This document shows positions 24 through 39,329 of a stretch of DNA of 64,000 nt, one piece after another (the stretch's first letter is position 1; each line of letters opens with the position of its first letter). The position numbers were made by a program, and so were the translations under genes. The notes under the pieces were generated by a model. It was not told the DNA's origin. It did not search any database and saw only the letters and a program-made list of their open reading frames with translations. The DNA is from Ulota crispa (lineage: Eukaryota > Streptophyta > Bryopsida > Orthotrichales > Orthotrichaceae): the NCBI GenBank assembly GCA_963920765.1, contig OY987242.1, forward strand, positions 32,450,002 through 32,514,001, in the 5' to 3' direction.

Positions 24-2655
24 GGCTTCAACAGTTGGTAGTGACGGCATCAGGGCCTGATGGACCAGGCATTGTAGCCAGATTGAGCAAGCGAGTGCTG
101 GATACCGGTGGGAATATCGAACTCAGCAGGATGGCCAGATTGGCTGGTGAATTCTCTGTGCTGATGCTTGTCACCTTTGACGTCACGTAAGTGCATTTCT
201 GTGGTACAGATTACTTTTTCCCTTCCAAAAGTCAAGGATAAGGTAGAACCACCCATTCCCGATCATTTAAGCTCCTGCAGGACAGCACATTAGAACAACA
301 ATGCGGAACAAATTTTTCTTTGGTGGCTTCATACGAATATTACAACACAATTTTTTTTGGAATTATTCATGCAAAATTGAATGATATACAAATTTTGAAG
401 TGCATGAAGTGTTTTGAACCCATACACAATCAGTAGACTCTCTTAATCCTAATCCTAATCCTAATCCTGATCATAGCCAAAACACTCCTTGCTCACTGCT
501 TCCTACTTTCTTTTGGGACACATGTCATGACCTCAATTGTCTTAATCTTGAAAAGGGAAAAATACCTATTCCAAACCTTGGAAATAGGCGTTGGAAATAG
601 CACACCCTAGACTGGTTGGGTTTGGATCCCTGGTTGGGAATGGGTGGTTCTACCTTAGGTGTCTTCTTAGCTATGTGTGTGTTCCTTCCAGGTTATCGTC
701 CTTGGTATGCTTGGCCGCCTAGTTTATCTCACATGCTTATTGGGAGTCAAATTCATTGAACTTGAAAATGTAGTCCAGAGTCTCGTAAATAGGATGGGCT
801 CAAATATTTGACTTGTACAGAACGCCAAGGAAAGCTGAGCAGTTACGCAACTCGCTTCTCCAGATTGAAGGTCTTCAGGTCTGGTCTGTCTTCTGTGTAT
901 TTTCTTGACGTGAATGCTACTAAAACAACTTTCAGTCGTCATCAATCTTTTGATTATACCGTAAAACACTTTTTCAAGTTAACCCATTAAGGACTGGTAG
1001 ACCAGTTCTTGGTCGATTTTGACTCTTTTTAGTTTGTAGAGAGAGCATGTCAAGGAATTTGATGACGTGGCAAAGGGGACGGGTATGGGGAATTGGAAAG
1101 TGAAGAGTTTAGGACAATAATCATGTCAATCTGAGGTGGCATGTGGCTAGAGGGTTGAAAAAACTAAAAGAGTACCGGCTGAAAATACACCAATAAATGC
1201 AAAAAGATGGTCATAACAACTAAAGAGTGAGCATAATTCATGATGCATAACACTAAATGCTGCAAGATACTTCCATCTTTACGGTCAAATCTGTCATAGA
1301 CATCTATATTCAATAACCCTAAAATGTCCCCCAAATGGGAATAGAAAGGATGCCCACCTCCAGAATCGACCACGGTCGTTAAAGGGTTAATAAGTGCATA
1401 AATTTTGGAGTTTCATTGGCTAAGGTTGTTTTGGTATCTCTTCAGGTTAATACCAGATGGACGTCTGATGAACGGTTAAAAAAAGTACGCCCGTCACATA
1501 CGTTTCAAAAGATTCTCCTGCGTGGTGTTGATAATCCTGGTACGTCTACTGAGTCGCCAGCTTGCTTGTCTGTGCTCAATTCGTGTGCGTGTGAACAGTG
1601 TGTTTAGGTCTAGACTTCGAAGGTGACAAATTAGCCAATCGCATGATGTGATGTTTACGACGATGTTAATCTCCGTTTAACAAGCAGATTTACATGTGAT
1701 AGGTCAGTATGATCACCTATATTGATTGGTGTGCACTTCATAATCCTGACCTCTCATCTATTTGAGTTCTGGCTCGAACTGCGTTCCTATATTGTTCTTT
1801 AGGATATTGCCTGCATTTTTTTTCTTACAATTGCACGTTTTTTCTTTATCCAACACAGCCTGTTGTTTGAGAGCATGTTTTTAGAGGTGGCAAATTAGCC
1901 GGTCGCATGACAACGATGTCAACCGAGATGAAAGTCTTTGTGATGAGTTGGTTCACATGTGATCGGTCAGTATGATCACCTAAATTGAGCGGTTCACACT
2001 TCAGTATTCTGAACTTGATTATAGTTGGGTTCGGAATGAAGTGTTTACCTATATCGTGCTACTGCTGACCATTATTATGCTCTTTCGTTATATATTCTGT
2101 TAAATGTTTTCGGGTCCAAGTACTTTAACTTTGATATTGTTTTTCGGTTGCTTGAAAGTGGCCACGCCAGTAGTAGCTTTTGTGCATGTATTGCTTAACG
2201 TGCAGTCTACCAAGATGGATCTACACCTAACATGTGTGGGGTTAGTGCAGGTCTCGTGTATAACCTGACCGAGTATCTATCATCTTATGGTATCAACATC
2301 GAGAGTCTTGAAACATTCAACCAGGAGGTGAGGATCCTGTCTTTCAGATTCTCTTGCTTATTGTTAACCTTGTTGTTTTTCAGTTCTACTCTAGATTCTA
2401 TCTACACCAACTGACAAAATTGTGTAATCTTTTGTGTTCTAAATGTTGACAATCCAGACAACAGCTGGGGGTGGTAAACTTTTCATGATGGAAGGAGTAA
2501 TAGCAGTCCCAGTGGGATTATCGACTGCAGCGTTCATTCACAATTTGGACACTTTGCAAGCAACGCTAGGTGCTGAAATCAAGATAGTTGACTTGCCCAA
2601 TCGTGTTCAAGCTAAGCTTGCAACCCCTGCTTTTGAAGGATCGAGTCAAGCCTGA
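24..2655 (+). CDS. Tandem ACT-domain protein, GcvR-like (3' part, five exons)
   Basis: I place exons at about 24 or 35-186, 821-878, 1446-1539, 2251-2327 and 2458-2655 (TGA). The phases join without a stop and give 192 visible residues; the N-terminus lies outside the window. The product has two ACT domains. The first contains GPDGPGIVARLSKRVLDTGG and ends FSVLMLVTF. The second starts ILLRGVDNPG, crosses a splice into LVYNLTEYLSSYGINIESLE and ends in the strand LFMMEGVIAVP. The DxPGxV-helix-GINIESLE pattern is that of GcvR-type small-molecule-binding ACT proteins; in bacteria these control glycine cleavage, and the ligand of the plant homologue is not evident here. All junctions are GT-AG, but the donor after exon 2 (CAG|GTCTGG) is weak. 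Introns 1 and 2 each hold a MITE. A GTGAGT just past the stop may open a 3'-UTR intron. Domain call firm, exact exon edges moderate. Confidence 0.75.
241..655. mobile_element. TA-flanked MITE, AGGTAG-terminus group (copy N1)
   Basis: The left end AGGTAGAACCACCCATTCCC is inverted at the right end as GGGAATGGGTGGTTCTACCT, and both are flanked by TA. It lies inside intron 1 of the ACT-domain gene and has no coding potential. Related copies are at 33919-34315 and 43999-44314. Confidence 0.8.
979..1390. mobile_element. TTAA-bounded piggyBac-like MITE (copy K)
   Basis: It begins TTAACCCATTAAGGAC and ends GTCGTTAAAGGGTTAA, so CCC...GGG termini are flanked by TTAA on both sides. The right end closely matches the ends of the 80-bp element at 50422-50501. 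It is non-autonomous, 412 bp with the TTAA copies, and sits in intron 2 of the ACT-domain gene. Confidence 0.7.
1612..2030. repeat. Imperfect direct duplication in an ACT-gene intron
   Basis: About 140 bp at 1617-1760 is repeated with divergence at 1885-2025. Both copies share AATTAGCC, CGCATGA and GGTCAGTATGATCACCTA in the same order. It lies in intron 3 and nothing in it looks coding. Confidence 0.6.
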
Positions 2656-3469
2656 TTCTTCGCAAAAGGTGAGTTGAGGCTGTAGTAACTTACATAGCAA
2701 CACAATCCAAACGTTTTGATGTGGTCTTAAATCTTGTGTTTTGATAGGTTTCTAGTGTTCTTTCAATGTTTCTGTTGAAAGGTTATGTAATTATTTGTAC
2801 ATTTCATGATTCAAGCTTACATCAACATGAAGCTCTGGTGACTGTGTTGTCTCACCCTTGGACTGATTGATGCAAATCTGGTCGATGCCTTCTTTTTGCG
2901 ACACCCTGTTGTCACCTGATTTTATTTTATTCTTTGTTCTAAAGATATTTGAATGATAAATCAAGTTATTTGAACCTTTAGTTATTAGTTTTTTAACATT
3001 GTTAAACATTTAGGCTACAAGGATATGAGTCGATAATCAAAGCCCACAAGCTGTTTTCAGAGCAGGCATCCTCTCTGCTGTGGCTGCGATCACTTTGACA
3101 AGCTCTTCCGCTCTGCACAAAACATTGAAATTGTAATCAAGTGTGAAATATTTTAGCTCGATTCATGATGCCTCGCGGGTAGAGTTCCTGCTCTGTGTCT
3201 TTCATTGTTGAACTGGTCTTACCGGAGTTTTACCAACAACATCAAAGATTCAGAAGTGTAATAGGAGATGGCTATCAAACTGATGTTCTACTACCCCTGT
3301 GGTTTTGCAATTCTTTCCAACCAAGTCAACTACACTTTCATGCATAATTAGTCAATGACAAATTGTTGGAGAATTTCTCAAAGTATTTCTTAAGATGAAA
3401 CTATGTTTAATGATTTTTTGGAATGCAGTCGTCAAGATTTTCGAAGACGAAAGACCCTGAACAATCATA
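2656..3469 (+). other. 3' UTR and spacer after the ACT-domain gene
   Basis: No coding signal was seen. The start is probably 3' UTR with a possible spliced intron, since AAAAGGTGAGTTGAGG follows the stop. I could not fix a polyadenylation site. Confidence 0.4.
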
Positions 3470-3668
3470 TTAACCCTTAAACGTCCCAAGGGCATAGTAA
3501 ATACTTTGTTGTATATTTGGCATTTGCTACCTATAAGAAATTTTGACTTGGGATCTTAAATAGCTCACTAGAACCACGTTTATCTATATTCCAACTTTTT
3601 ATTGATCTCAATTGTAGTAGAGGTGTGGATCCATTTCAAATACAAGAAAAATACCCTTTAAGGGTTAA
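3470..3668. mobile_element. TTAA-bounded piggyBac-like MITE (family A, copy A1)
   Basis: Starts TTAACCCTTAAACGTCCC and ends CCCTTTAAGGGTTAA, 199 bp including both TTAA copies. The interior (GGCATTTGCTACC, CACTAGAACCACG, GGTGTGGATCC) recurs at 52185-52416 and 61306-61520, and in reverse orientation at 7694-8270, which defines a family. Confidence 0.8.
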
Positions 3669-3907
3669 GTACGATACTTGTAGGAATTTTTTATGTTTGA
3701 ATTTTTCTTGTACAAGTTGAAAATTTAGTAACAAACCAAATTGTTCAATATTCAGGAAGATGGCACCATTCCTTGCTATCCACCCAAAACTCACATTCCA
3801 ATGTATATTGTAAATTTTGAAAGTGCGGATTTTATACAAACCCAAATGAACACTAACTCTTAGGATCATGAATCATGTTCACTCAAGATATAAAAGGACT
3901 GTTGTTA

Positions 3908-4102
3908 AGGTAAGAGGCACTAATTGCGTTTGCATCTAAGAACATGTGACATATGAGTTAAAATATCTATGATTGTCATTGATGAGTTTGGTAGGCTTAA
4001 CATATATTGTTAAGCCTACCAAACTCATCAATGACAGTCATAGATATTTTAGCTCAAATGTTAAACGTTCCTAGACTCAAACGCAATTAGAGCCTCTTAC
4101 CT
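3908..4102. mobile_element. TA-flanked hairpin MITE (family M, copy M1)
   Basis: An almost uninterrupted inverted repeat of about 195 bp: AGGTAAGAGGCACTAATTGC at the left pairs with GCAATTAGAGCCTCTTACCT at the right, with TA on each side. The arms meet at a small loop near 4005, so a transcript would fold into one long hairpin. A relative is at 44486-44636. Confidence 0.8.
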
Positions 4103-5394
4103 TACGTGCAGTGAGTGCACCTTGAATGTGTCCAAAATATGTTCAAAACTACGAACTTTCAAAGTGCTGACTTTAATGCACCCAAAATAACCTTTGACTC
4201 AACGCGTTCAGCACTTGCTATTGGGTATAAGTTGCACTTCCAAGCAATCAGAAAAAAACCCTAGACCAGGGAATTTTAATGCAAGCAAGCAAGGAAAAAA
4301 TGGATAGACCCATCCAGGTGTGCATATTCATCCCTCAAATCAGTTAATATTAGTAGCTTCCATCCAAAATCTAGTACACCTAAAGTGCAACTCAGAGTTA
4401 TCTGGCAATTCCATCCTGTTTTCACGAAACTTCTTTATTGTCGAGGTCGCTAGTGTCAAAATGAGGTAAGAGTGTGGAGAAGATTAACTTAAAATATTTT
4501 CCACTTAAAACATTTCCTTGTATAGGACTATCTCATACTATGAGTACTATATCATATCCAACTCGACACCCAAACTAACCAAGATTTCATTAGAATTCTT
4601 TGAACATGACTATGAGCAAGCTTCCAGGTTGACACAGGAATTAGAAAATTTAAAATGGACAAACAATTACACTGCAAACTTGTTTATGTTTATGGCTTCT
4701 GAGCTTTACGATTCCGGATCAACCTGGAAGTTTGCCCTTAATCTCACCAAGGCTGAATGCGCCTGCAAGCCTATAATTCCGCACTATCACCAATCCTGTA
4801 ACCACTAACCACCAAAGCAAACACTGACATGATAGTGAAGCACAAGAAACTGATCCAAAAGCCCTGACTCTCAATACCCAACATCCAAAACACCTTAGAT
4901 TCAACCACGTACACCAAATGAAAAAAACAATACAGTATAGATGTCAGAAACAGCCATTTCCGAACAACCTCTCCAAAACTGTACGGTAGCAGCATCCATA
5001 AGAATTGCGTCCCCATGCCCGTCACCTGACAGTGGTAGGGCTAATCAATAAAAAAACAAATGGTTGTGGATAAATGAGTGATGGCTATGGGTGATGGAGT
5101 GATGGTTGTAGGTGACTAGCATGAGGTTTTGAGTACCCATCTCACTATTTAAGACCAACAAGCCTTGTGATTAGCATCTCTTACACATGGTTCCTACAAT
5201 TTCAATGATTTTGGACTTTGAAAAATCTTTGTGAACAAATGCTTGTAGTTGGAATTTTGAAATTGATGCCAATATATTCGGTTTCCATTTCCTAATTTAC
5301 AGTATTTTTTCAAAGTTAGTCAATTATTTTACCTACTCCAAAACCCTTATTTCCACGCTTATGGGTGCGCCTACCTTACAGAAAGCTAGAAAAC
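4103..5394. other. Spacer without recognised genes
   Basis: Short reading frames on both strands lack recognisable domains or splice logic. Bases 4904-4985 are an extra diverged copy of 5811-5900. The sequence ending CCTACCTTAC near 5378 resembles an orphan right end of the AGGTAG MITE group. Confidence 0.4.
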
Positions 5395-6340
5395 CTCAAC
5401 AATACAAGAATTAGAAAACTGTGCTCAACTTGGTCACAAATCTGCAATCGCAGAGAGAAAGAGCAGGATTATAAGGTTAAATAATTCCTAGTATTAGGGT
5501 TTCCACACTCAAACCCTAATCAGAGAATTAGCATAGTTAAAGTACAAGTATCTGGACATGATCGTTCTAAAGACTCTCGTCACTACCGACGTTCTGAAGC
5601 ACAACGAGGAAACAAAACACCGAACGAAGCAAATCAGGAAGAAAATCAAGCTTCAAGAGGAAATTAACAGAGATGAGCAAGTGAAGGAAATGCAAAGAAT
5701 GATTTTCAAATGAGGTAAGCTTATGATACAATGGCTATGGTTAAGCTGGTGATACAATGGCTATGGCAAATTCTAAGCTGGTGATACAAAGTTGACGACC
5801 TGATTTCATTCAACCACACCAAGTGAAAAAAACAACACAGTATAGATGTCAGATGTCAGAAACAGCCATTTCAGAACTAACTCTCCAAAACTGTACAGAA
5901 AACTAATAAGCTTACTTCAACGATACAAGAATTAGAAAGTTGTGCCCAATTTGGTCACAAATCTGCAATCGCAGAGAGAGAAAGAGCAGGATTACCGTAT
6001 AAGGTTAAACATTCATAATATTAGGATTTCCACACTCAAACCCTAACCAGAGAATTAGCACAGTTGAAGTACGAGTTTCTGAACATGATCGTTTTACACG
6101 CTCTCGTCGCTAAGGTACCGACGTTATGAAGCGCAACGACGAAAAAAAACACCGAACGAAGCCAAATGAGGAAGAAAACCAAGCTTCGAGAGGAAATGAA
6201 TTAATAGGCATGAGCAAGTGAAGGAAATAAAAAGAATGATTTTCAAATGAGGTATGATACAATAGCTATGGCTAAGCTGGTGATACAATGGCTATGGCTA
6301 AGCTGGTGATACAATGGCTATAGCTAAGCTGGTGATATAA
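5395..6340. repeat. Tandem duplication of about 520 bp plus short direct repeats
   Basis: Bases 5395-5765 are repeated with modest divergence at 5917-6290; shared blocks include CACAAATCTGCAATCGCAGA and GAATGATTTTCAAATGAGGT. Each copy ends in repeats of GATACAATGGCTATGG with TAAGCTGGT, and the last ones run into the 3' end of the GNAT gene. The block lies downstream of that minus-strand gene and may derive from its 3' region or from a lost neighbour. Confidence 0.75.
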
Positions 6341-7187
6341 AGTTGACGACCTGTTTTTTGCGCGATTCCTGAACGAGCAGCACGGCGCTCGCGGCGTCGC
6401 TTTCAGCGGTGTACATCATGGCGGTGGAGCCGAGGACGTCGGAGCCGAATCCACACTTTTTGAAGAAGGGCGACGTAGGGGGATCGGCCATGACGGCGAT
6501 GTCGGCGATGCCGTACCGGGAGATTTCCCGCACCATTCGCTGCATGAGGCGGCGGCCGATGCCGCGCCCTTGCAGCGACGGTGCGACGGCGACGTCGTGG
6601 ATGGAGGCCGTGAGGGCGCGGTCGGAAGTGGCACGCGCGAAGGCCACGAGAGTCCGCTTCAGCCGCGGCGGAGTGTCCTCGTCCTCGGGCCGGTCCGGGA
6701 AATAATCCTCGTGCAGCTCCCCACGGACGTACATGGCCACCACGATGAAGCTGTGCTGGATTGCGCGCCTTAGTTTTACGGGGCTCACTTCCGGGATCGA
6801 GCCGTCGGGATTCAGCTTCGGGAATTGGTCGCAGTTCTGTTGAGTTCCTGTCAACAGTGCTCGCAGCTCCGCAATGTCGACTTCCTGCCAGTTCGTCGTC
6901 ACCGCAAGCTCCCAATGCCGGACTGCGACCGCACCGCTGGCCCTTGCACGACGCGGCGTCGGCGGCATCCATGGTGCGCTCGAATTCGCGGCGATCCAGA
7001 ACCCGCCCTTGCTCCACGTCGGAATCCGCACCGTGCTCCTCGTGAAGGAGCTCGACACGATGCCACTACTCCGAAGGCGGCCATGACAGGATTGAGAGGC
7101 AAGGGATGCGGATTGCAAGAGAGCCGCGTTCATTGAAAAGGAACGGGTAACCGACTCTCGAATGCCACAACACACACAATCATCCAC
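6324..7187 (-). CDS. GNAT-family N-acetyltransferase, probably plastid-targeted
   Basis: Uninterrupted 287-residue reading frame. Residues 197-220 form GNAT motif A, with HDVAVAP followed by the acetyl-CoA pyrophosphate loop QGRGIGRR (206-213). FFKKCGF (241-247) is the usual C-terminal GNAT segment. The fold covers roughly residues 90-262, and a plant-type segment HWELAVTTNW precedes it. The N-terminus is rich in Ser, Arg and Ala and almost lacks acidic residues after Met19, which suits a chloroplast transit peptide; Met19 may be the true start. The substrate (protein N-termini, lysines or amines) cannot be told from sequence. The gene is intronless and much richer in G+C than the BTAF1 exons or the flanks, which suggests a retroposed copy, a transferred gene, or simply a GC-rich intronless class. 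The last codons run into a local tandem repeat. Confidence 0.8.
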   Translation of the reverse strand: MDDCVCCGIRESVTRSFSMNAALLQSASLASQSCHGRLRSSGIVSSSFTRSTVRIPTWSKGGFWIAANSSAPWMPPTPRRARASGAVAVRHWELAVTTNWQEVDIAELRALLTGTQQNCDQFPKLNPDGSIPEVSPVKLRRAIQHSFIVVAMYVRGELHEDYFPDRPEDEDTPPRLKRTLVAFARATSDRALTASIHDVAVAPSLQGRGIGRRLMQRMVREISRYGIADIAVMADPPTSPFFKKCGFGSDVLGSTAMMYTAESDAASAVLLVQESRKKQVVNFISPA

Positions 7188-7560
7188 CTGTGCCGAGCGG
7201 TGATCAAATCGCCTGCAATTCGTTCAGTGGCATCGGCATCGGCATTGCCATCGCCATCGACATCTTATCCAATTCGGCTTTCTTCAAAGCTTTTCTCCAG
7301 AGCTTTCTTCAAAGCTCTATCAGCTGCGATAAAGCTATTGAAGGCAATTGCAGGAACTGGGAGTGCGCGCAGTGGCTGACAGGGTTGAGGAGAATCGGTG
7401 CGACTGCAGCGATTGCGATGCGAGTGTGATTCCGCGAGCAGCACTCGCGGCGCGCGCGTGATGCTGTGAAGCCCGTTCTTTTCCTCTTCGGAGCCCACCA
7501 CCCCTCTCGCGTTTCTTTAGCCCTTTGGCCATGTCATGTCCATTTTAGGTTGTAAGATTT
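7188..7560 (-). promoter_or_regulatory. Probable promoter and 5' UTR of the GNAT gene
   Basis: GC-rich sequence upstream of the minus-strand GNAT start, ending where AT-rich DNA resumes near 7530. It contains an imperfect hexamer run of GGCATC/GCCATC at 7228-7264. No clear TATA box was identified. Inferred from position and composition only. Confidence 0.35.
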
Positions 7561-7693: not shown

Positions 7694-8270
7694 TTAACTC
7701 TTGAACGACCGAGCAGCACTTTGCGACCAGTACAATACAAAGTATTTTTCTTTTATTTGGAGTGCATCCACTTCACACCTTTATTATAGGGGAAATTACA
7801 AATAGGGGCACAAAAATGAAAAATATTATACATAGGGGCACGGTTTCAAAGTGCTTACAAACAGGGGTACAATTTTAAAACCATTTTACTTAAATTTCCT
7901 TATTCAAGCTTGATTTGGAGAGGTCTTTTAGTCTTTTGGAGGTTAGCTAACATCTAATGTGATATATCTGAATCAACCAATGTCCAAACTAAAGTTTGCA
8001 AGAATTTACAAAAACAAAATTGAAACTATGCCCCTATTTGTAATTATTTTGAAACTATGCCCCTATCTGTAATATTTTTCATTTTTGTGCCACTATTTGC
8101 AATTTCCCCTTTATTGTATATGAGATCAACAAAGAAGTTAAAATATAGATCAATGATGTTCTAGTGAGGTAGTCAAGATCCCAAATTAAAACTTTTTGTT
8201 GGTAGCAAATGCCAGTTCTACAACATTGTACATAGTATGTATTATAGTAGCTCAGTCCTTTAAGGGTTAA
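7694..8270. mobile_element. TTAA-bounded piggyBac-like MITE (copy A2), interrupted
   Basis: Reverse-oriented relative of the 3470-3668 element. It ends CCTTTAAGGGTTAA, and the left end is diverged (TTAACTCTTGAACGACC). A Mutator-like element (7789-8109) is inserted in it. Its right TTAA is also the left TTAA of the next element (8267-8270). Confidence 0.7.
7789..8109. mobile_element. Mutator-like MITE nested in A2
   Basis: Terminal inverted repeats of about 58 bp start GGGGAAATTACAAATAGGGG on the left; the right end reads GTGCCACTATTTGCAATTTCCCC. The flanks TTTATTATA and TTTATTGTA form a 9-bp duplication with one mismatch, the size typical of Mutator-like elements. About 320 bp, non-coding. 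Confidence 0.7.
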
Positions 8271-9193
8271 CCCCTAAACGCTCAATCGACAATTTTTTGG
8301 TGGATGTCCTTTTTTGGGCTACCCGAGATGAAAATAAACATTTTTTTGAAAAAATAAAAAATATTTTCATATAGTAAAGCAAGTCTACTTTCCAACTCAA
8401 TTTGAATTTTGTCAATCCAAGTTAACCCTTAAACATCTGCTGGGTGGCCGTGGCCTGCCCACACTTTAGCTTTAGTGATATTTTTACTGTAGCTTCAATA
8501 GTATTTTGATAAATGGGCACCAATAGTATCACTTCTAAAAGTTTCAAAAGTCAATAGTGCATGCCGACCTCATGAAAATTGCAATAAAGGCAGCTTAGGT
8601 CCTAACACCATGATTTTGAATTTTCTCACAATTTGGGTTACTTAAAAATATGAGCATACTTGATAAGATTGTTATTTGCTGTCTATGATGAATCGTAGGT
8701 TTTTTGTCACTTTGGAAAAAAAAACAGATGAAAAGCAACTTTTTTCTATTGAACAGAATGTTTTTTCAAGGCCAGAGGACAAAAAACATTGTCATGGGCG
8801 TTTAGGGGTTAAACTCCACCAAGGAGAATTTTTCAAAGACAAACATTTCAATATTAGCTAGTGTGATAAACTTTACTATTTTGGAAAACTCATGATGTTC
8901 TCTCATTTAAATATACTGCATTTTTGGGTTTTAGAATATAATATTTGTTGTTAACCAATCACATCAAATTTTAAATTTTATGAACAAATTTTTAATTTTG
9001 ATGAATACTAAATGATAAATACTTCTAACTACATTAAATAAGAGTCTAAAACCTTTTTTGAATGTTTGATTGTATGGATAATTACTAAACATCATGATTC
9101 TTATTTTCTCTTTTGATGCAAACTTAATCAAAATGAAAAAGTATTATTTAGAAATCATTTTTGTTTTGTTCTTACCCATTGTTTAGGGGTTAA
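8267..9193. mobile_element. TTAA-bounded piggyBac-like MITE (family E, copy E1), interrupted
   Basis: Begins TTAACCCCTAAACGCTC and ends TTTAGGGGTTAA. It is split by another TTAA element (8422-8812). The parts on either side align in reverse orientation with 38277-38934, which lacks that insertion. No transposase frame. Confidence 0.85.
8422..8812. mobile_element. TTAA-bounded piggyBac-like MITE (family F, copy F1) with matching empty site
   Basis: Starts TTAACCCTTAAACATC and ends GCGTTTAGGGGTTAA. The host flanks GTCAATCCAAG and ACTCCACC are joined by a single TTAA in the related copy at 38772-38797 (minus orientation), so the insertion duplicated exactly TTAA. A second copy of family F is at 31937-32298; both share the interior GGTGGCCGTG and AGGCAGCTT. 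Confidence 0.9.
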
Positions 9194-12460: not shown

Positions 12461-12870
12461 AGGAATTGATATGTGCACACGTGGGGTTTGATATATATAC
12501 ACCCCCATCGGGCAAATTTTAGAGTTTTACCTTCAAAAAGTTAAATTTGAAAATTTCAAACTCAAAATCTGGACTTAGAGACCTTGATTTAATCTAGAAC
12601 CATATAAGAAGCTAGAATTGCACAACACCCAATGAAGAAACTTAGGTAAGGTGCAAACTATTACTTTTACTTTTGTTTGTAAAAAATGATAAGCTTTTTC
12701 ATTAGGTGTTGTTCAATTGTAACCTCCATTATGGTTCTAGACTAAATCAAGGTCTCTAAGTTCAAATCTGGAATCAAAATATTCAAATTCTACTTTGTAG
12801 GTTAAAAATCTGAAATTTTCCCGGCCATGTGTGCATATATTGAACCCCAGGTGTGCACATATCAATTCCC
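12461..12870. mobile_element. Inverted-repeat MITE (family L, copy L1)
   Basis: The left end GGAATTGATATGTGCACACG is inverted at the right end (GTGCACATATCAATTCC). The complementarity runs on through the GGGTTTGATATAT segment and the arm containing ATCTAGAACCAT. The flanks TAAAATAA/TAAATTAA could be an 8-bp duplication with one mismatch. A fragment of the family lies inside the element at 39977-41180, and another diverged piece near 44330-44430. Confidence 0.7.
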
Positions 12871-15880: not shown

Positions 15881-18800
15881 ATGGCTCAGCAGACATCCCG
15901 ACTGCACCGCCTCCTCACACTACTTGACAGTATCCACATCCTTCTATTGCTTCACCTTTCCACTTGATTATTGATGTCATGGAGCATTTTCTTGCGTGAC
16001 TCTTTTACATGTTGTTTTACCAATCTTAAGTGTTCAATTTAAGGAGCTGGAATATCTCTAGCCAGTTAATTTACCTGGGAATGTGTTTTATGATGAAGAG
16101 GGCCACCTGTCCTTATCATGGCTCTATGAATGAACACCGTTGTAGGTGGCTCTATTGTCAAGTAAATGACCCTCAATTGCACCTAGGTTGTCCTCGTCAT
16201 CGAGTTGGAATAAACTTTGGCGTTGACGTGTGGTATCACCTCCTGTGAATCCTCCTTGATTTTGATCGTTATGCTTTTGGCTCCAGCTGAGTTGTATGGT
16301 GAAGTTTTGTACGTTTTTCGTGTTATTATTGAGGAACTGGCCACCTTAACTGAAGAACAGCGGGATCCACATCAATTACAAGAAGGGCAGCAGCTCGACA
16401 AATTGGTGACATTGCAAAGCAGCACCGAGGAGAGCTTCGGCCACTTCTTAGACGGGTATGATATTTATATTTCAACGTTGATAAATTGGTTTTCCTTGTG
16501 GACTTTTGTTTTAGGTAGTGTGGAGCTTGTGGTGGCAGTTTCAGAATTTTGTATAAGAAGGATAGTAAACTTGGATGGGTTGGGGCTATGGAACGGCGTA
16601 AGTACTTTGCTGATAGGGAACCAAAATAATTTCAAGCTCTCATGGGGGATGGATTTAACCGGTTTCTAGGATTCACAGTACCTCTAGTTGAATTGAAGGC
16701 TTGTGGTAGGGATGATATGTTGAAGCACTGTTTTCAATTTCATGTCAAGATTCTTAAATGACGTAATTTTTTGCAGGTTCGACAATATTTACGTAGCAAG
16801 AGTTGGGATACTAGAGTGGCAGCAGCGCAGGCTATAGGAGCTATTGCAGAAAATGTGCCGCATTTGACCGTGAAGGACCTTATTGCAAGTGCTGAAGCAG
16901 AATTAAGCAAGGAAGATCACCCTGAAAGGATTTTAGAGACTCCAGTTTACCATGAGAATGAAGATGGTGCTCTTACCTTTCAAAGGTAAGCATCCTTATT
17001 ATGTATTCCAAGTAGCAGGACTCGTTGATCTTTAATGATGTTAATTAAATCCTTTGTGTGTTGAAAATTCACATGAAAAACTTATTAATTTGATGCTGTT
17101 CTGGAAATGATATATCTGAATCAAAAGCTGTCACTTCTTCCAAGTCAATGCATCTCGGTCAATAGTTTAATGACTTATTCATAGGATGGTTAGACCACTA
17201 GAAGGATTCAGGCTTTGTAGTAATAATCAATTGACAAGCACTCCGCTATTTGAAAGTTAGACCAGGATTGCTTGGAGATTTGTAGCTTATTGTCGTCTAG
17301 TAATCCTTGCTGCTTGCAGGTTTGATATGCAAGGAGTGCTTGAAAATGGAGCCCAGTTGTTATCATCTGGGGGCCAAGAGTACGATGTGGGTGTTGACAA
17401 CTCCAAATCCCCTGCTGAACGATTGGCTCGTCAGAAGCACAATCTTCGTCGGCGCTTAGGTAAGATAAGATCATTTTTCTTGTTGTTCTGTTTGGTGGTT
17501 TGTTTTTCCATGTAAATTATGTGTCAAGTGAATCTGAATGTTGTACAACTATTGCTTAGTATCTGTTTTTTTGAACCTCTCATTTCGTATACATTGGTTT
17601 GTTTTGTACTATGCGCATATCTCTGCAAGAAACTAGAAACTTTGCAATTGCTGGGTCATTACTAGTGAAGATATGGTTTTAAGGGAATCATGGAGGCTGT
17701 TTCAGGGCTCAATGGATGCGAGGAGTTCATGGATGTCAATGATATGATTCGGGATGAAGACCTCTTGGGACTTCGTGGATCATCCATTGGGAATGGAGAA
17801 GCTCGAGATTTCTTTGCGCAACCACAACTTCCCAAGCAGGAGGTCCATGACTTAGTGGCTACCATGGTACCCGGTGGCCTTTCAAGAACTTTAAGTGCTA
17901 GAGAGCGTAATATGTTGAAGCGTAAGGCCAAGGTGTTGCCTAAAGATGGCACGAAAGAATGGGGAGAGGAAGAGGAAAACGAAGAGCCAGTTTCCAAGCG
18001 TACTAAACAAATAAAGTCTGTTATATCTGAGCAGCCACAGGGTGGAGACACGAAGGTGTGATGCTTTTGATTACTAGTGCAGATTTCTGGGCATTCTTGT
18101 AGAAGTAAGATTTACTCTGCTTTGTAATATAATTTGGTATAGCTTATCTTTTCTTCTTCCAATCTATTAGCAATTGTTGGAATGTAGCTCTTTGCTTGTA
18201 AAATAGATTGATGTAGATGTGATGGTTATGTCTTGTCTAGCTTCAGTATCTATTGAATACTCTGAATTGTAACATTTGGAGTGTTTGGCGTGGTGCAGCT
18301 TGTTGTAGAAGCAGTAATAGATGATGAGAATCAGGAGGGAGATGCGGATGGGGAATGGCCGTTTTATCACATTGTGGAGCTTCTTATACACGATATGTTT
18401 GACCCAGGTTTTATTCTGTCCAGTTCATGCCATTTTGACTTTGATACGATGCTCTGTTTCTGACACGTCCGGGGGCTATGGCATGTTATGATCATAACAT
18501 TCTTATGTCTTCGTAAAGTTTTAAAGTTTTACTTGTAAATTTTAGTTGCTTTTTCATACACTAAATCAAGTCAACACCATTATTGTCCCGTCCTATCCTC
18601 ATTTAACGTACTTAGTCTTTACCGATACCATTTAGCATTTCCTTCTATTTAACTAATAGCCGTTCTGATATTTCGAGTGCCATTTGGTGCTTAGACATCT
18701 CTAATTTCTTACAGCGTGAATCTTTTTGACAGTTTGGGAGGTACGACATGGAAGTCTAATGGCCTTGAGAGAGATCTTAAGCGTTCAAGCTGCATCGGCT

Positions 18801-21800
18801 GGTGTCATGGCGCCAACCGTGGAAGCAGAATCAGGAGCAGAAGCTGAAGCAGAATCAGGAGCAGAAGCTGAAGCAGAATCAGGAGCAGTACCTAGCGACC
18901 TGTCTTCTCTTGAAAGTAAAAAACCTGAGGAGGCGATTCTGTACCCAAGTCCTCATAACGAAAGTATGATAGACCTTAATGTAGGCATATCACCAGAGGA
19001 AGACAATGGAGAATTTAAGAAGGGTATGGAACGTTCTTCACCAGCTCTTCAGAATCACAACTGGGGTGGGGTACCTGAAGCTATGGACGACTGGATGAAA
19101 TCAGGCCACCATGCTGTCAAGACAGAGTTAAGTTTAGGTGGAAGCAAGGCAGGATCGAAATTGAACTTTTTTAAACCCGAAGGTACGGAGGCTTTGAAGT
19201 CTGAGTTGAATTTGGATTTGGGTGAAACTGGAGGCCTGAATGCTCCGAAACCTGAGTTGAATTTGGATTTGGGTGTAGTTAAGTCGGAATTATCTCTAGG
19301 TGCTGTGAAGCAAGAATTGGGGTTGGATCTTAACTTGGAAGCAGAGTTAGATTTGAACATGGAAACGAGGGAACCAGTGATTGTGAAAGAAGAGCCATTA
19401 ACCGTGAAAGATGAGTCAGTAGCTGTGAAAGAGGAGATGAAACTAGAGAGTGAACCACTGCCAAATCTGTTTTGGCAACCTCACGCCGTTGATAGTGTCA
19501 TCAAAGAAAGCAACTACTCAGTGGCTGTTACAGTCGCGAAAAAAGCTTGGGCTGCAAACGTTGGATTTCTTCAAGACTGTACTATTCGCCTGCTTTGTGT
19601 CTTTGCCCTTGATCGGTGAGCATGCTGATCAAACCCGTTGGCTTCAGTATTATATGTGTTTCTTGTGATTGTTTTGCTATCTCATTTTGCGTACTATACG
19701 CCGCTACTTTTGGAGCTGTGATAGAAGTTTGCCTGTTTATTTATGTACCTTGGTAGAAACTCGTGCCACATGCTCCGTATCTGTTAAATCGAAGCATCAG
19801 AAGGCGTAGTGCTGTATTAAAGGATATATCTTTTATGCAGGTTTGGAGATTACGTGTCGGATCAAGTGGTGGCTCCCGTTCGAGAAACATGTGCACAAGT
19901 GATGGGAGCTGTGATGAAGCAGATGCCACCTGCGTTAGTCCATGAATCATTAAACGTTATGCTTCAAATGCAGGTATGTTGCAGCCTCAAGGTGGAAACG
20001 ATGGTTTAGGTTGTGAATTAAACTCGCCAATCAAAGGATCTATTACTGCAACTTCAAAAGTTTATTATTGGACTAAGAACTCTTTGTTTTGTTTTATTGG
20101 AAGTGAAAATGGCAATCACATTCAGAACAACTTTCTTTTCGATGGGCGTTACTATTTTTCTTCACTTGCGTACTATATCTTCAGGCATTTTGGTGTTTTG
20201 ATAATTTCAGTGGTGGTAATTTGATACATCTTGAGCATAGTGTGAATATTGACACACTTTTGGCAACAGAGTCGCCCTGAGTGGGAGGTGCGACACGGGA
20301 GCCTATTGGGTATCAAATATCTTGTAGCAGTTCGTCAGGTAAAATTTTCTTGTTTTTCTTGTTATCAAATAAGTATGTTAGGTTATGTGAGGTTGGTTTG
20401 GTTAGTTGTAAAACGCTTAACAAATCGCATGCTCAACATGTTTTGTGAGTATAGAGAAGTATATTGAGTTTTTGGAACACACCTATGGTAAGTCAAAAAT
20501 CTGCAAGGCCTTAAATAATAAACCTTGAAAACTCATCAGTGTCCTTCCAATATCAGAACGGAAAATTTTTGCTGAGAAATATCCCTCCATGCGCATCCAA
20601 TTTTCCGTAAGCGCTATTCTAAAGCAAAAATGTTTGGTTGGATTCCACAGGAGATGTTGGAGGAACTGCTACCACGAGTCCTCCCTGCCTGCATGGCAGG
20701 TTTGGAGGATCCCGACGATGATGTACGCGCAGTAGCTGCAGAAGCTTTGACTCCAGCAGCAGCTGCTATAGTTGCGTCTGCTGGTAGTAAAAATGTTACT
20801 GCCATCTTATTGTCGCTGTGGGACATCTTGCTGGACTTGGATGACCTCAGCCCATCAACTAGTAGGTGGGTCTCAACTGTTTCCTGTAAAATCCTCCGCT
20901 TTGTTTTCTTTTCTAATGATTAAGCTCCTTCTATTAACACTAAAATCATCTTGCTCTGTGACAGTGTCATGCACTTGTTGTCAGAGCTGTATTCTCAGCC
21001 ACAAGTGGACTCAAAGACGGTGGTGGAGAAACCGCTGTTGCTGGATTTGAATGAGACTATGATGGATGATCACTTAGGCGATACTGCAGGCGGTTCAGAG
21101 GATGATCCATTTTTGCTCTCAACTTTAGCCCCACGCTTATGGCCCTTTATGCGTCACAACATTACCTCTGTTCGTCTTGCAGCCGTTCGGACCTTGGTTT
21201 GACCTTCTAGCCTTTTGATCCTGTATACGTACCCTAGGCCTTAAATGGAAACGATAAGGAGGGGAATACAATGGGGCTGTTGTCGCCATGTTTTTTTATG
21301 TTGTGTAGCTATTGCCATTACGTCTTCTGTAGAACTATGGAAGGGATTCAAAAATCAAGAAGAGAGTACATTACTTTGTAGTTTCTTAGAAGCTATTATA
21401 TTCCTTAGTACTGTGGCGTCTTAAATTTTATTCATGCAGTCGTGATATTCTTAGCATTCAACCTGGTTATGCAGGAGCGCCTTTTGGAGTCTGGAGATCA
21501 CGGAGAAAAGGGGGACTCTAGGAGTTCCTGGGCTGTCCCTATATTGGGTGATGCTTTGAGAATGGTTTTTCAAAATCTGCTTCTCGAGTCGGATGAGACT
21601 GTGATTGAGTTCTCTCAGCGTGTTTGGCGACTACTACTTCAAGTCAGTGGCTGCTACTCTACCTTGATGTTTCAAACCGTTGGGAAGTTCATTGGGATTG
21701 CAGCAATGTATTCTAGATCAAATCTTTCTACTTGCTGCAAGCTCAACTTCAGTCTTTCTCAGGGAGCTTTCTTTCTGTAGTGTATTATCAAAGGGAAGCA

Positions 21801-24800
21801 CTGTTCTTTAAAAGATCTATAATCGGGCTCATGGTGCTCGTCTCTTCACCTTAGAAACGTTCCCACTGGCTGTCTCTTTTTATGCATCTAGCTGTTTTGT
21901 GTGTGGTTTGCATTTGGTTGAAATGTGATGCATTTAAGATTTAAGCACAGCCAATTTTTGTCATTTGACCATGGAACCTATAATCGACTGTCGGAACTGT
22001 TTTGTGATGCTGATCACCTTTTCAGATTTGGATCGAAGTACTTTTGACTCGTCGGTTTCTTAATTCATCATCTTGGTATTGGTGCGCAGTGTCCGCAAGC
22101 AAACTTGGCAGAGGAAGCAACGTCATATTTATCATCATGGTTAAAATTGGCAAGCACAGTTGCTGGTGCACCTTTGGAGGCGTCAAAGATGTATTCACCG
22201 AATTCACTGCCCAGGAAAAGCAGAGGTAGGGCAGTTGCCAAACTAAAGGCAGTTCGTGGGGGGACACCGACAACTGGGGAACCCAGCTGGGCACCTCCTA
22301 GACCAAATAAAGTCCGAGAACAAGCCTCTGTGGTTGTTGGTGCTGATGGTGAGAAATCTGCAGTCCATATGCGCGTGACAACAGCTAAGGCCCTCGGCAT
22401 AATCGCTGCCTCACTACCTGCCTCACTGTTTCCCACAGTTGCCACTTACCTGACTGAACTATTATCGTCCCTCAGTGGTACTCAACGCCAGGTATTATTT
22501 TCAGCTTACTTAACTTAGAGATCCAAATACTGTACAAATCATTTGGATGCAACTTTCTAAAGTGTCATTTTTCATGTCAAATCAGGTGGCAGCAATGGTG
22601 ATTGTATCATGGTTCAAAGAAATCAGAAGTCAAAATGACCAGGAAAAGTCCTCAGAAGCGACAAAAGCTGTACAGCCTATGCTACACCGGTTACTAGAGC
22701 TTCTAGGCTCTGGAGACCCTTCATTCCCAACTCCCGGATCAAACGCACCATACGCGGAGCTTTCCAGGATGTTAGCAAAAATGCGCACAGAGGCTGGTGC
22801 TCTTGTTAAGCATACAGAATCTGTTGGAACATTCAAGCGTTCATTTCTTACCAGCTTACCTTCGACTGACGCCATTAGTGCGGAAGCAGCGGTAGACCTT
22901 GCCACAAAACTATTACTGCCAAGCCAGTCTCATGGTGGCGATGGTGATGATAAGCCTGCATCTGCTTCTGATGCAATGGAATCGGCTCGCCAAAGGCTGC
23001 TTGCTACAGCGGGATACCTCCAAGCTGTTCAGGTTTGATGAACTCAAGAACTTCCTTGTATCTTGATGTACACAACTAGACGTATTTCAAGCTCAGTGTG
23101 ATGGTAGTCTGAAGGTCGGAGTTTAAAGATTCTTTTCTTTTTATTTCGCTCCCCACTTCAAATTTTTGGTCTTGGTAATGAATTTGCAGGGTAATCTGCA
23201 TATGAGCGTGTTGGCATCACTTGCGAGTGCTGTTGTCTGGATGGGTGAACTTCCTGTGAAGCTCAACCCAGTGATTCAACCATTGATGGCTGCAATCAAA
23301 CGTGAACAGGTAATGTAGCTCTGTACTGCTCTTGGCACTTCCAATAGATCAGAAATTTATCAATGTCATTCCTTGGAATATTTTGGCCCTTTTTAAGTTT
23401 AGAGGGGTTAGTTGTATCTCGTATATCAGTTGAGCTGATCTGAAAATTCATGTCCCACTTTGGGGTTGCAGGAAGAAGCACTTCAACAGCCTGCAGCGGA
23501 GGCATTGGCGGAAGTTATTGTGCAATGCGTTGGGCGAAAACCTAGTCCTAACGAGAAATTAATAAAGAACTTATGTGCATTAACTTGTGCTGATCCAATC
23601 GAGACTCCCAAAGCCACGCAAACCAGCGTGACTGCAATTATTCCAGAGGAATCTGAAACGCCCTCTTCTGGGAAAAGTAACAAGCTTGGAAAGTTGCCAC
23701 CCTCAGCGGCCAATGATGAGAGAGCAAGAGCCGAAGGGGCAATTACGAGACGTGGAGCAGAGTCGGCATTGAAGTCTTTGTGTAACAAATTTGGAAGTTC
23801 CTTACTGGATCAGCTTCCGAAATTATGGGACTGCTTGACTGAAAGCCTCGGACAACCTGCCCCTGCTACCAGCGACCAATTTTCTGTTACTCTTCCTGTT
23901 TTGACTGCTGAGTCTCCGGCTCTAATCATAAACCTTCAGGTAGGCCATCTTGATCACGTACCGTTTCTTTGTTGTTGTACAGTACTCAATGTGAAAGATT
24001 TTCAGCTTTGAAAAGTTATTTCAGCAAGCCGAATTTTGAAGTTTTAAATGAAGCTGATGCTTTTGTACCTAGTCGATTCAGTTTTGCCATAAACCAAGCA
24101 ATTGAAACACTGGTTCATGTAGGTGGTGAGATCCATCGCTCCAGTGGTGGACAGAGCACTGCATCCAAAAATGCTGACACTTTTGCCAGCCATTTATACC
24201 TGTGTCCGGCATGATCATGCGGCGGTTCGACTTGTAGCTTCTAGATGCCTCACAGCTATGGCTCAAACCATGCTCGAACCTGTAATGGCATCTGTCTTAA
24301 CAGCAGCTGTGCCTATGTTGGGTGACACCGTATCAGTTGAAGCACGACAAGGTGCAGGAATGCTGATTACGGCTCTGGTGGAGGGTCTAGGCACTGAGCT
24401 TGTGGCTTACGCTCCCTTGCTTATTGTACCCTTGCTGGGTTGTATGAGTGATTCCAATCACCATGTTCGTCAAAGTGTTACAAGCAGTTTTGCAGCTCTC
24501 GTCCCACTTCTCCCACTGGCACGCGGAGTGCCTCCTCCTAAAGGGTTGGACGGGGGTCAAGCATCAAGGAGTGCCGACGACACTCGGTTCCTGGAGCAAC
24601 TCTTGGACAACACTCAGGTTGATGATTACGAATTATTGGTGCCACTTAACGTTACTTTGCGCAGGTGAGTCGTGAACTCTCCGCAGTACTTTTAGGTTAG
24701 AGGTTGTACAGCAAGAAACATTGTTCGCCCTTTCTAGTCTCAAATAGGAGCTGAGTTCGATCCAGGCTGCTCCATGTAGAAATCTCAGAATATTGGTTTA

Positions 24801-27800
24801 TTCTGCATTAGTGTCATTTCAAGGTTCACAGCTGAAACATTTGATTTCTACATGATATCTGAACTCATTGTCATTTTTACCCTTTTATCTTGCAAATCTG
24901 ACAAGTTACCGTTTTTCTTCAGGTATCAACAAGAAGGCATTAACTGGCTTGCATTTCTCAAACGCTTCAAACTTCACGGTATATTATGTGATGATATGGG
25001 ATTGGGTAAAACCCTTCAAGCGTCTGCTATTGTTGCATCGGACACTGTCGAACGAGCAAACGCGTTTGCTGTATCCAAAAATCCCGATGTGGCCCCCCTT
25101 CCAACATTGGTGGTTTGTCCTTCAACTCTGGTAGGTCATTGGGCTTACGAAATTGAGAAGTTTATACCAGGTGATATTTTGAACCCCCTGCAATACGTGG
25201 GATCGCCTCAAGAACGGGTCAATCTACGATCTCGGTTCCCGAAGCACAACATTATTATCGCATCATATGACGTATTGCGCAAAGATATTGACGTTCTTGC
25301 GCAACAAGTGTGGAACTACTGCATTCTTGATGAGGGCCACATTATCAAGAGTGCTAGGTCGAAGATCACATTAGCTGCTAAGCGAATACAGGCTGATCAT
25401 CGACTCTTATTATCAGGAACTCCAATCCAGAATAATGTTCTGGAGCTTTGGTCTCTCTTTGACTTCCTTATGCCGGGTTTTCTAGGAACCGAGCGCCAGG
25501 TATTAAAAACTTTTGTCATTCAAGCTTGTTCACTAATTTTTTTCTTTTTTATTGTGCCTTTATATATGGCTTTCTTGTTTTTGCCTTGGATCCGTTCATA
25601 TCATGCCTAAGATGGACATCTCTACTGTTCAAGAACATAAAATGATGAAACAGTTCCTGCGGTATTTCAATTTGTTCTCCTTTGTACTTGAGAAGGGAAT
25701 GTGTATCATTATGCCAGTGTATGCATGATAGGTGTGGCGACTAGTCGTCTAGAGTTCATCGTTGTCGGTCGTTGGATCCTTCCAATCTGCAGACTGGTCT
25801 TCTCTACGGACCGATTTCCCTCAAGAACGATGTTTAGTATGAAACTTAATTTTCCGTTGGTCTCAGGAAAGAGTATACAGTAGTCAAGAGACCAACTCTT
25901 CGCTGAGGTAGACTGTGATAATCAGTGTAAGTAGTGTGACCTATTTCGATGTATCCTACGATGGCTGTGAGCACTACTAGGGTTTAACTCCGACTTTGGT
26001 TAGACTAGGTGAATGACTAAGCTTTTTAACTTGCAGTTCCAATCCAGTTACGGAAAACCGTTGCAAGCTGCTAAAGAAGGCAAATGCTCCTCAAAAGAAG
26101 CTGAGGCTGGAGTGCTGGCCATGGAAGCACTTCACAAGCAGGTACTACACGGTGTCATTGTTATTCCAGGCACATTTTATAATCTTTCTGTACGTTGATG
26201 ATAGCATCGCTTTTGCCATTTTATGATACAACTTAAAGGAGTCGCTGTTCTAGTAAGGCGCAGAATTTTCAATTCTGCATCTATGAATTGCAGTTTCTGG
26301 GTTCAGTCGGAATGGAGGACCTGATGTAGCATATGCAACATTTGTCCAACTTAATAAGTATTTTTAGGGTTGCATAACTAGAAATGGGTCTCTAAAAGAT
26401 TTTGCATAGATTCCTGAGAGTGAGAGTTCAGTCTTTCTTCAAGCCTAATCAGAAATACCCTGAATACGCACTAACAGTCAAGATATCTTCGGTGAAGGTT
26501 ATGCCATTTTTGTTAAGGCGTACCAAAGACGAAGTGCTAGCAGACCTTCCACCAAAAATCATTCAAGATCGATACTGTGATCTTAGTCCATTGCAATTAC
26601 AGCTCTATGAAGATTTTTCGCATTCTCAGGCGAAACAAGAAGTCTCTACACTTGTACAGACCTATGGTGGGCCTGATGTTCCTGAAGCCCGGGCTGCTAG
26701 TGCTCCAACTACTCATGTTTTTCAGGTGACATTTGTGACTTGATTGATATTCTTGTCATATACACGGGTATAGGCAGCTGTTTTTCAGTGTTTTGCAGCT
26801 GTATCAAGGATGCGACTCTAATGCTTTGTATCTCACAAGGTTCTCAACAAATAGCGTACATATTACTGTTACTGAAGGGTCTTATTTTGATGGGAGTCGC
26901 AGGCACTGCAATACCTGCGGAAGCTTTGTAGCCATCCTTTGCTAGTGTTAGAGGACGAGAGACAAGCAGCGCGGCATGCAGATGCAATTGCTCAAAGTGG
27001 CAGCAAAGACCTACATGAACTACAGCATGCTCCCAAGCTTCTAGCTCTACGGGACATCTTAGAAGAATGTGGCATTGGCACGACTGCTACTACACCTTCG
27101 AGTGCAGCTGAAACGTCATTCAGTGCAGAAGGAGGTCAACATCGTGTTCTTATTTTTGCCCAACTTAAGGTGCTAGTTCTATACTCGTACTCTTTGGGTC
27201 AGCATTCTACCTGATTATGACTAGCTTTACCCTTTTTACTGTTTGGCAATTGTAAGTTTGCCTTAACTCTGGGTTACTTGGGTTTATGGTATCTTTGCAT
27301 TTCTCTAGGAAACATTTGAACTTAGGGAATGTATTCATTGCCATCAGTCGAACAGGAAACTGTAGAAGAGCATCTTTAGGTAGTATTGTCTACAGATCTA
27401 AAGTACAGGTTGTGAAGTTGAAAATGTTCCTTCTACCGAGCTGTAATTTTTTAATTTTTGATGTGATTGCAGATTTTTTTGGACATCATAGAAAAGGATC
27501 TATTTCAAACACATATGAAAGGGTTAGTTCTTCAAGAACCCAAATCGTTCCTCCGTTACTTTTTTTTTCTGCTCTTCTGTAGAATCTAGAGACCTGCTAA
27601 CGCTTGTGAGCATAAATGGATTCAGGGTGACCTATCTGCGATTGGATGGATCAGTGGAGTCAGACAGACGTTTTGACATTGTCAAGGCCTTCAACTCCGA
27701 TCCCACCATTGATGTGCTTCTTCTCACTACCCACGGTAAACACTTTTCTCACATCCAGATATGGTTTTATTCTTGGGCATTTGTAAATCAGTTGCAATCT

Positions 27801-29688: not shown

Positions 29689-31003
29689 CTCCCTCTGTCC
29701 CAGGGTTTCATTTTTTGGTGATTTGGGGCAAAATTGCACCAATTTTTTTGACTCGTACCAAGCCTATAGAAAATAAAACACAATTATTTGGATGAAATCG
29801 TCAAAAAACTTCAAGCTTTAAAAAAAACTTCGATGAAATTGCCAAATTGTGGATGAAAACCAAATTATAGACATGTAACATGTGCTAATGAGATATTTTC
29901 TATCCAATATGTGGAGAATGTTGAAATATGGAGAACCATTATAACATTTTAAATTGCCACTTTGGCACTTCTTAAGAAATGAAAATTAAAACTCTACTCT
30001 GTCCCTATAAGCTCCAAATTGAACACATTTCTTATACCACTCAAAAAGCTCCCTCTTGTTGATTTCAAATATTGAGAAAGTGTTTGCCATGTTCAATGAT
30101 CTCATGGGGCAAGTTAAGCAATTAAAGAGCATTCCTCCTAGCAAGCTTGGCCTTGCCAATATGAAGTACCATTGTTGTTACTAATCTTTAAATCATCAGT
30201 AATGGGGAGTTGGCAATTTGGGTGGCCATTTGGTAGATGGTATATCATGGGGCTTCAAACATAAAATCTAGTCTACAAGTTTCTCACCTCATAGAGTCCT
30301 AGCTCACTAGTGAATTATTTTTGTTCACTCACATGCCCAAAGTTTGGCACACTTGTGAGTTTGTGGTTAGGGTTTTGTGCACAAGTTGGGGATCTAAGTG
30401 TTTGAGATACCCGAGATGATGGGCCGTACAAAAGTGAGTTTCTGAAGTTCACTCCTAATAGAGGGCTTCAAACTTAAACTTTTTTAGATGACTTACATCT
30501 CGGTTCACCTCTATGAATTCACTAGTAAATAGCGAGGTAACTCACCTTTGGAATTCACACCTAACATGATTTACGTGAGGAGTGAACTTCAAAAACTCAC
30601 TTTTGCACATCTCATCCTCATGGCTGTCTCAGACACTCAGACCCTTGACTTGCGCACAAAACCCTAATTTCAAATTCATTGGTGTGTCAGACTTTTGTCG
30701 TAGGAGTGAACAAAAATAATTCACTAGTGAGCGGGGATCCTATGAGGTGAGAAACTTGTAGGCTAGATTTCATGTTTGAACCCCCCCTAATGTGAATCAT
30801 GTTAGGAATGAATTCTAGATGTGAATCACCTCACTATTCACTAGCGAATTCACCGAGGTGAATTGCAACATGAGTCACCTAAAAAAATTGATGTTTGAAG
30901 CCCCTATCAATTTTAGAATACATGTGTCACTAGCACAAAGACTAAAAATAGAGTTAATCCTTGCAAAGAAGCTTTGTGGAAGTTTTTAGAGGGACAGAGG
31001 GAG
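29689..31003. mobile_element. Stowaway MITE with internal insertions
   Basis: Termini CTCCCTCTGTCCC and GGGACAGAGGGAG with TA on both sides are the classic plant Stowaway (Tc1/mariner) ends. At about 1.3 kb it is far longer than a normal Stowaway because it contains a foldback element at 30249-30904. Confidence 0.85.
30249..30904. mobile_element. Foldback element with two interlocked inverted repeats, nested in the Stowaway
   Basis: Outer ends GGGGCTTCAAACAT and ATGTTTGAAGCCCC. The segment 30249-30335 is inverted at about 30700-30786, while 30464-30570 is inverted at about 30787-30904. The pairs therefore cross rather than nest, as expected when one copy of a family inserted into another. 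Non-coding. Confidence 0.6.
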
Positions 31004-38934: not shown

Positions 38935-39298
38935 CTACAAGCCTTGAAAACTTCACAAGAAAATGGATGAGAAAATTCATAGTAGAGTTGTTGCTGTTAC
39001 ATTTAACTCCTAAACCACAAAAGTTTGTTCAACATTGGGTGAAAGTTTGGGTAGGTTCCTATAAAGTCAATTTTTGGCTAATGTTTTTGAAATTTGGAGG
39101 CAAGGTGCACACACTGAATAGCTTTGTGTGGAAGAAAAGGAAACTCCAATCAAAAACTTGAGTAAAAAGTTATGTTGCCCAAAAGAATTTGGGCACCTTG
39201 GGTAGTTTGGGCATCTTTGGAGAATCTTATGCTAAAACTCTCATTAACTTTTGAAACTTGGCATGTATGTAACTAATAAAACGTAGTACACAATTGTC

Positions 39299-39329
<31 letters not shown>

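Follow-up and report, generated by a model that had tools for sequence, protein, structure and literature searches.

A 391-bp element, F1, at positions 8422-8812 of the 64,000-nucleotide stretch of DNA analyzed here (the window; C1:32450002-32514001) is, with a probability of about 0.93, a non-autonomous MITE of the piggyBac superfamily that was moved in trans into a TTAA within an older E element. According to this reading, a piggyBac transposase expressed from another genomic locus would bind the CCCYTNAA-type ends of F1, excise it exactly at TTAA by cut-and-paste in trans, and join it into the TTAA of the older E element, which would leave one TTAA on each side. Excision by piggyBac is seamless and its cut-and-paste chemistry is established (PMC7351741, accessible text); by analogy, the known hairpin cut-and-paste chemistry may also apply to F1. 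We infer that family F was moved by a piggyBac transposase encoded in this genome and not by an unrelated TTAA-cutting enzyme. The piggyBac interpretation of the TTAA insertion, which had been proposed in a preliminary description of this DNA, is supported by abundant PF13843 matches, by three gene-bearing copies with like ends, and by a sister element (979-1390) that is tied to one of these copies. F1 and its relatives belong to the known piggyBac/MITE type, and their abundance is unusual for a land plant.

F1 is nested in the TTAA element E1

The elements that form this nest, and the neighbour that adjoins it, are the following.

8422-8812 (+): F1, a non-coding piggyBac-type MITE with TTAA at both ends, an empty site in a relative, and copies in the genome
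8267-9193 (+): E1, the TTAA element interrupted by F1, about 540 bp without F1; ends TTAACCCCTAAACGC / TTAACCCCTAAACAATG; aligned with E2
38392-38938 (-): E2, a paralogous E copy with an unoccupied site (TTAA at 38783-38786), from the alignment and from genome copies
7694-8270 (+): TTAA element whose right TTAA is the left TTAA of E1

F1 (sequence TTAACCCTTAAACATC...GGGCGTTTAGGGGTTAA) starts with TTAACCCTTAAAC, ends with GTTTAGGGGTTAA and is bordered by TTAA on both ends, which confirms the earlier observation that such an element interrupts repeat E1. Its flanks GTCAATCCAAG and ACTCCACC were said to be joined by one TTAA in a related repeat, and this was borne out: a single TTAA lies between them at 38783-38786 on the reverse strand, and E1 without its 387-base insert aligns with the reverse strand of 38277-38960 ungapped across GTCAATCCAAG-TTAA-ACTCCACC. 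The related repeat had been placed at 38277-38934. It is a genuine paralogous E copy, but a start at 38277 is wrong, because, with 38277-38940 as the query, the matches to other genomic E copies start only at about base 113-128. By our reading, the TTAACCCC end at 38277 is part of something else, and E2 extends from about 38392 to 38938 with decayed outer boundaries. Since E1 (8267-9193) is itself a TTAA element, F1 and E1 form a nest of two piggyBac-type elements.

Filled and empty sites

The target duplication was assessed with an empty-site test that uses only the flanks and reads the intervening bases, and that was applied to 71 full-length insertions of 12 families after the duplicate loci L001, L003, L009 and L039 had been left out. 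At least one paralogous unoccupied site was found for 16 of the 71 insertions, giving 87 filled/empty pairs. The flanks were separated by exactly 4 bases in 76 of these pairs, as expected from the exact TTAA duplication claimed previously, and no other duplication size predominates: the remaining 11 pairs have 2 bases (1 pair), 3 bases (3), 5 bases (1) or 7 bases (6, all from a single E insertion, L059). At the F1 site, the 31 empty E places (28 loci plus the window) comprise 25 with TTAA, 4 with other 4-base words and 2 with 3 bases. When the commonest empty word was taken for each of the 16 insertions, it was TTAA for 7, another 4-base word for 7, a 3-base word for 1 and a 7-base word for 1. 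For F1 and its family, the filled and empty sites thus reveal a TTAA target duplication.

Instead of an insertion, an empty site might also mean that other E copies have lost F1 by precise deletion, or that the families differ. The seamless nature of piggyBac excision (PMC7351741, accessible text) means that any one empty site could be a site that F1 has left, and unoccupied copies are over-represented in the sample because the query that retrieved the E loci did not contain F. We nevertheless consider either alternative very improbable: F1 is absent from that site in 31 E places (fetched loci and window), 30 F copies have 12-base flanks that do not resemble each other, a second, independent nest (F2, below) shows the same pattern, and a 4-base word is the commonest empty site in 14 of the 16 insertions.

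The ends occur far more often than expected by chance

Ends consisting of TTAA and CCCYTNAA without mismatch occur 24 times in the window on both strands (10 left and 14 right), whereas 60 first-order Markov shuffles of the window contained 0.15 such ends on average and never more than 2. With one mismatch there are 30 ends versus 3.5 in the shuffles, and with two mismatches 57 versus 27.8, which is why the looser ends are no evidence on their own. Beyond the motif, the ends mostly continue as GGACC-like sequence. In the 162,400 bases flanking 58 MITE loci, a sample that is biased towards repeats, we found 57 perfect ends (22 per 64 kb), while the same flanks contained an average of 0.7 in total when shuffled 20 times. 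At the 14 transposase loci the density was lower: their 82,242 bases contain 8 perfect ends.

The TTAA words could in principle be a chance or alignment effect of AT-rich DNA and of queries that themselves contain TTAA. The region is indeed AT-rich, the copy ends were found with TTAA-including queries, and at two mismatches the shuffles already yield 27.8 of the 57 ends. This explanation has a negligible probability in view of the 24 perfect ends where 0.15 are expected, and of the empty-site test, which uses the flanks only and reads the bases between them.

We also considered whether insertions favour the TTAA that older elements carry at their ends, and found no such preference. Insertions that share a TTAA with another end number 8 of 71, and such ends make up 10.3% of 2,262 sampled TTAA sites (binomial tail 0.45); with a strict threshold the values are 3 of 71 and 6.8% (binomial tail 0.87).

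Other TTAA elements in the window

Further elements with TTAA ends are distributed over the window.

979-1390 (+): MITE of 412 bp, best read as an internal-deletion derivative of L071:195-5850
3470-3668 (+): TTAA element of 199 bp, related to 52185-52416
31196-32298 (+): F2, another F copy, interrupted by the TTAA element at 31203-31940
31203-31940 (+): TTAA element nested in F2, its first TTAA now TCAA
32721-33445 (+): TTAA element of 725 bp, nearly palindromic
43644-43873 (+): TTAA element of 230 bp
45390-46310 (+): TTAA element of 921 bp, left end a weak motif match (5/7); reverse-strand relative at 59835-60763
50422-50501 (+): TTAA element of 80 bp
52185-52416 (+): TTAA element of 232 bp, left end a weak motif match (5/7)
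58781-59435 (+): TTAA element of 655 bp, right TTAA decayed to TTAG
59835-60763 (+): TTAA element of 929 bp

In F2, the element at 31203-31940 occupies the inner TTAA (TTAACCC-TTAA), and when the flanks are joined F2 aligns with F1 from end to end. Together, 14 element spans that were paired by hand cover 10,083 bases or 15.8% of the window, some of these pairings (39003-41437 and the span from 38277) being uncertain. The span 39003-41437 was considered as a gene-bearing element and rejected as such. It is probably a MITE with inserts, because its left and right ends resemble the respective ends of the short element L074:417-1342.

Nearly full-length palindromic (foldback) repeats are found at 32721-33445, 30249-30785, 12462-12869 and 3906-4104, and only the first of these has clear TTAA/CCC ends. 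A tandem repeat at 55777-56076, with offsets of 102, 154 and 206 bases, is situated inside overlapping open frames at about 55611-56123.

Families F and E in the genome

The assembly to which the window belongs (275 Mb, 157 contigs) was searched with F1 and E. With F1, 40 of the 2,631 loose first-look candidates were scored, and these yielded 42 matches. With the copy in the window set aside, 39 near-full-length F copies share 84-89% identity with F1, and two fragments share 73-76%. The E query gave 40 matches, with 40 scored of 1,600 loose first-look candidates. TTAA is present at both ends of 26 of the 31 full-length F copies (the window copy being counted twice, in the window and as L009) and of 17 of the 27 E copies, counts that are weak by themselves because the queries contained TTAA.

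The genome contains abundant piggyBac transposase genes

A six-frame search of the genome with PF13843 (DDE_Tnp_1_7) resulted in at least 120 matches, all above the curated cut-off and with a best E-value of 1.3e-73; this count is a lower bound, since 116 of 528 candidates were scored. The transposase genes anticipated in the preliminary description are therefore abundant, and three copies carry like TTAA and CCC-type ends. The matched stretch is free of stops in 10 of the at least 120 matches and contains stops in 110, some of which are perhaps located in introns, as a six-frame search ignores these and an intron in one locus (L070) illustrates the possibility. Among the matches listed, none lies inside the window, and no transposase was detected by Pfam in the 10 window frames scanned, out of 30 frames of at least 120 amino acids. 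The profile also had no match in 14 control genomes; the 11 named ones are prokaryotes, which makes this result uninformative on plants.

Two of the predicted proteins are homologous to piggyBac transposases of solved structure. In phmmer comparisons, the frame L071:2951-4366 matched piggyBat (9c0f) with 3.6e-18 and piggyBac (6x67) with 6.6e-16, and the frame L073:3183-4169 matched piggyBac (6x67) with 1.6e-25 and piggyBat (9c0f) with 2.7e-21. L071 aligns TVDE, CDN and GVDVADQ with piggyBat, and L073 aligns TVDE and CDNFFTS with piggyBac, its frame stopping before the third motif. The aspartates in the TVDE, CDN and GVDVADQ contexts are those that we take to be the catalytic residues. DDE_Tnp_1_7 is the sole Pfam family in five transposase frames (of L069, L070, L071 and L073), and three other frames showed no family; the assignment of L075 is by its PF13843 match only.

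Two transposase matches with identical scores, at C2:36765124-36766008 and C2:36779670-36780554, are in opposite orientation about 14 kb apart, which suggests an inverted segmental duplication. The matches at C7:18203169 and C7:18223004 look alike.

Gene-bearing elements and their ends

Of the 14 distinct transposase loci that we read, 8 (the long loci) included about 2.5-3.6 kb of sequence flanking the domain on either side, and 6 (the short loci) included 1.5 kb. Three of the 8 long loci have convincingly paired ends, the transposase domain lying between inverted ends in each.

L071:195-5850: gene-bearing element, ends TTAACCCATTAAGGATC / TTGACCCTTTAAGGACC
L073:763-5789: gene-bearing element, ends TTAACCCCTCATCGCCA / TTAACCCTTCATTGCCA
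L075:20-5673: gene-bearing element, ends TTAACCCCTCAACACCC / TTAATCCCTCAACGCCC

The right TTAA of L071 reads TTGA, and the right end of L075 reads TTAATCCC. As for the other long loci, L069 and L070 have right-type ends only, L074 has an uncertain pair (417-6437), and L072 and L076 have no convincing pair; among the six short loci, L006 has a right end. The span 417-6437 of L074 is doubtful as a full-length element because 417-1342 looks like a separate MITE. Downstream of the transposase domain in this locus, a unit of about 52 bases is repeated in tandem at L074:4872-5471.

The window element 979-1390 is the link between the MITEs and these genes. Its positions 1-234 match L071 195-428 at 70% identity (E 2e-22) and its positions 386-412 match L071 5824-5850 at 89% (27 bp, E 6e-4), with no match to L071 in the middle (positions 235-385). 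Because both ends match and the middle does not, the element is best read as an internal-deletion derivative of the L071 piggyBac element; the direction of the change, a deletion, is our inference. No transposase-bearing copy with the subterminal sequence of F or of E was present among the 14 loci. Family F is consequently assigned to piggyBac by its ends, by the site that it targets and through the sister element 979-1390.

MITEs of another TTAA-targeting superfamily, Kolobok or Sola3, might share the genome with piggyBac by coincidence. Sola3 uses TTAA. Kolobok likewise duplicates TTAA (PMC9587614, accessible text), Sola elements have been counted in ferns (accessible parts of PMC6786969 and PMC6890710), and F and E so far have no transposase-bearing copy of their own, the transposases having been searched by PF13843. 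However, the ends of Kolobok are given as 5'-RR...YY-3' in the accessible text of PMC9587614, as opposed to CCC...GGG in the families described here. While the 24 perfect ends had been selected by their CCC motif, the 30 F copies compared for ends had not. In F1 and its family the ends start with CCY in inverted orientation; piggyBac ends begin with CCYT, which is the rule for this superfamily (PMC10175614, accessible text). Furthermore, 979-1390 is linked to a gene-bearing element that encodes a piggyBac transposase. A Kolobok or Sola3 origin is therefore improbable, and the piggyBac reading is preferred. In the search by PF13843, no gene-bearing partner of another transposase superfamily was encountered.

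The main piggyBac activity, or invasion, looks old because most transposase matches contain stops and the scored F copies differ from F1 by 11-16%. One locus may have had a different fate. At L070:2950-4641 (G000:C1:1177700-1185000), both halves of the domain are free of stops around a GT-AG intron, and no TTAA/CCC left end is present within 3 kb upstream; from its sequence, L070 is a candidate for a piggyBac-derived gene used by the host. As a tentative wider scenario, for which we claim less than even odds, a non-seed land plant would have undergone a large piggyBac invasion by several transposase lineages (end types CCCATTAAGGATC, CCCCTCATCGCC and CCCCTCAACACCC), whose MITEs would fill a substantial share of the intergenic DNA and which possibly left L070 as a host-used gene.

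Comparison with known systems and plant records

MITEs derived from piggyBac in animals are short, non-coding and flanked by TTAA. The elements described here have the same traits, the difference being the host lineage. As in the piggyBac superfamily (DDE_Tnp_1_7, PF13843) of Trichoplusia ni piggyBac and Myotis piggyBat, they have a TTAA target and duplication and CCY ends, and the transposases of L071 and L073 are homologous to those of the solved structures 6x67 and 9c0f. They differ from the known examples in that the host is a land plant and in that most transposase matches contain stops. The three gene-bearing copies with ends (L071, L073 and L075) are also longer, at 5.0-5.7 kb compared to 2.2-3.5 kb for complete bee elements (PMC10140906, accessible text).

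In the accessible parts of the sources, plant records of piggyBac consist of a repeat table for C-Fern with 1,230 PiggyBac hits, 122 kb and 0.00% of the genome (PMC6890710), a review of angiosperm MITEs that names a PiggyBac class (PMC10004981), and statements or implications that piggyBac occurs in plants (PMC10140906, PMC10794571). The C-Fern and angiosperm entries bear the same superfamily label but, as far as accessible, are annotation counts or names only, whereas the data presented here include empty sites, transposase genes flanked by ends, and loose MITE candidates by the thousand. In the literature searched (titles and abstract openings, with few subscription journals), piggyBac is handled chiefly as a transposon of animals, land-plant records are thin, and no description of a land plant with an abundant piggyBac family was found. 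With a chromosome-scale plant genome that contains more than 100 transposase matches and thousands of candidate MITEs, the history in plants of piggyBac, itself a widely used gene-transfer system, becomes testable: how old it is, how many times it entered, whether it was transferred horizontally and whether the host may use the transposase.

Host genes

The preliminary description had regarded an abundant TTAA family in a land plant as noteworthy in comparison with seed plants. Seed plants are a less fitting comparison here, since the host has dynein genes: a genome search yielded 41 matches to dynein heavy chain exons in nine clusters, as well as 14 dirigent matches. To our knowledge, flowering plants and conifers lack dynein heavy chain genes, and because these exons are present the host is very probably neither. 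Dynein heavy chain and dirigent genes together indicate a land plant with swimming sperm. Of 33 5S matches, 26 lie in a separate tandem array on C1, mostly with a spacing of 722 bp; 5S genes of bryophytes are located within the 45S unit. By this rule, the separate array would make a moss or liverwort less likely and would favour a lycophyte or fern. PF03067, a marker for Tma12 (PMC6786969, accessible text), had 0 matches in the genome, so that a Salvinia-like fern is not supported, although such an absence is weak evidence. Within the window, two host genes were recognized.

16214-28546: BTAF1/MOT1-like gene with DUF3535, HEAT and SNF2 exons (Pfam), the gene name being our reading
6327-7223 (-): GNAT gene (Pfam)
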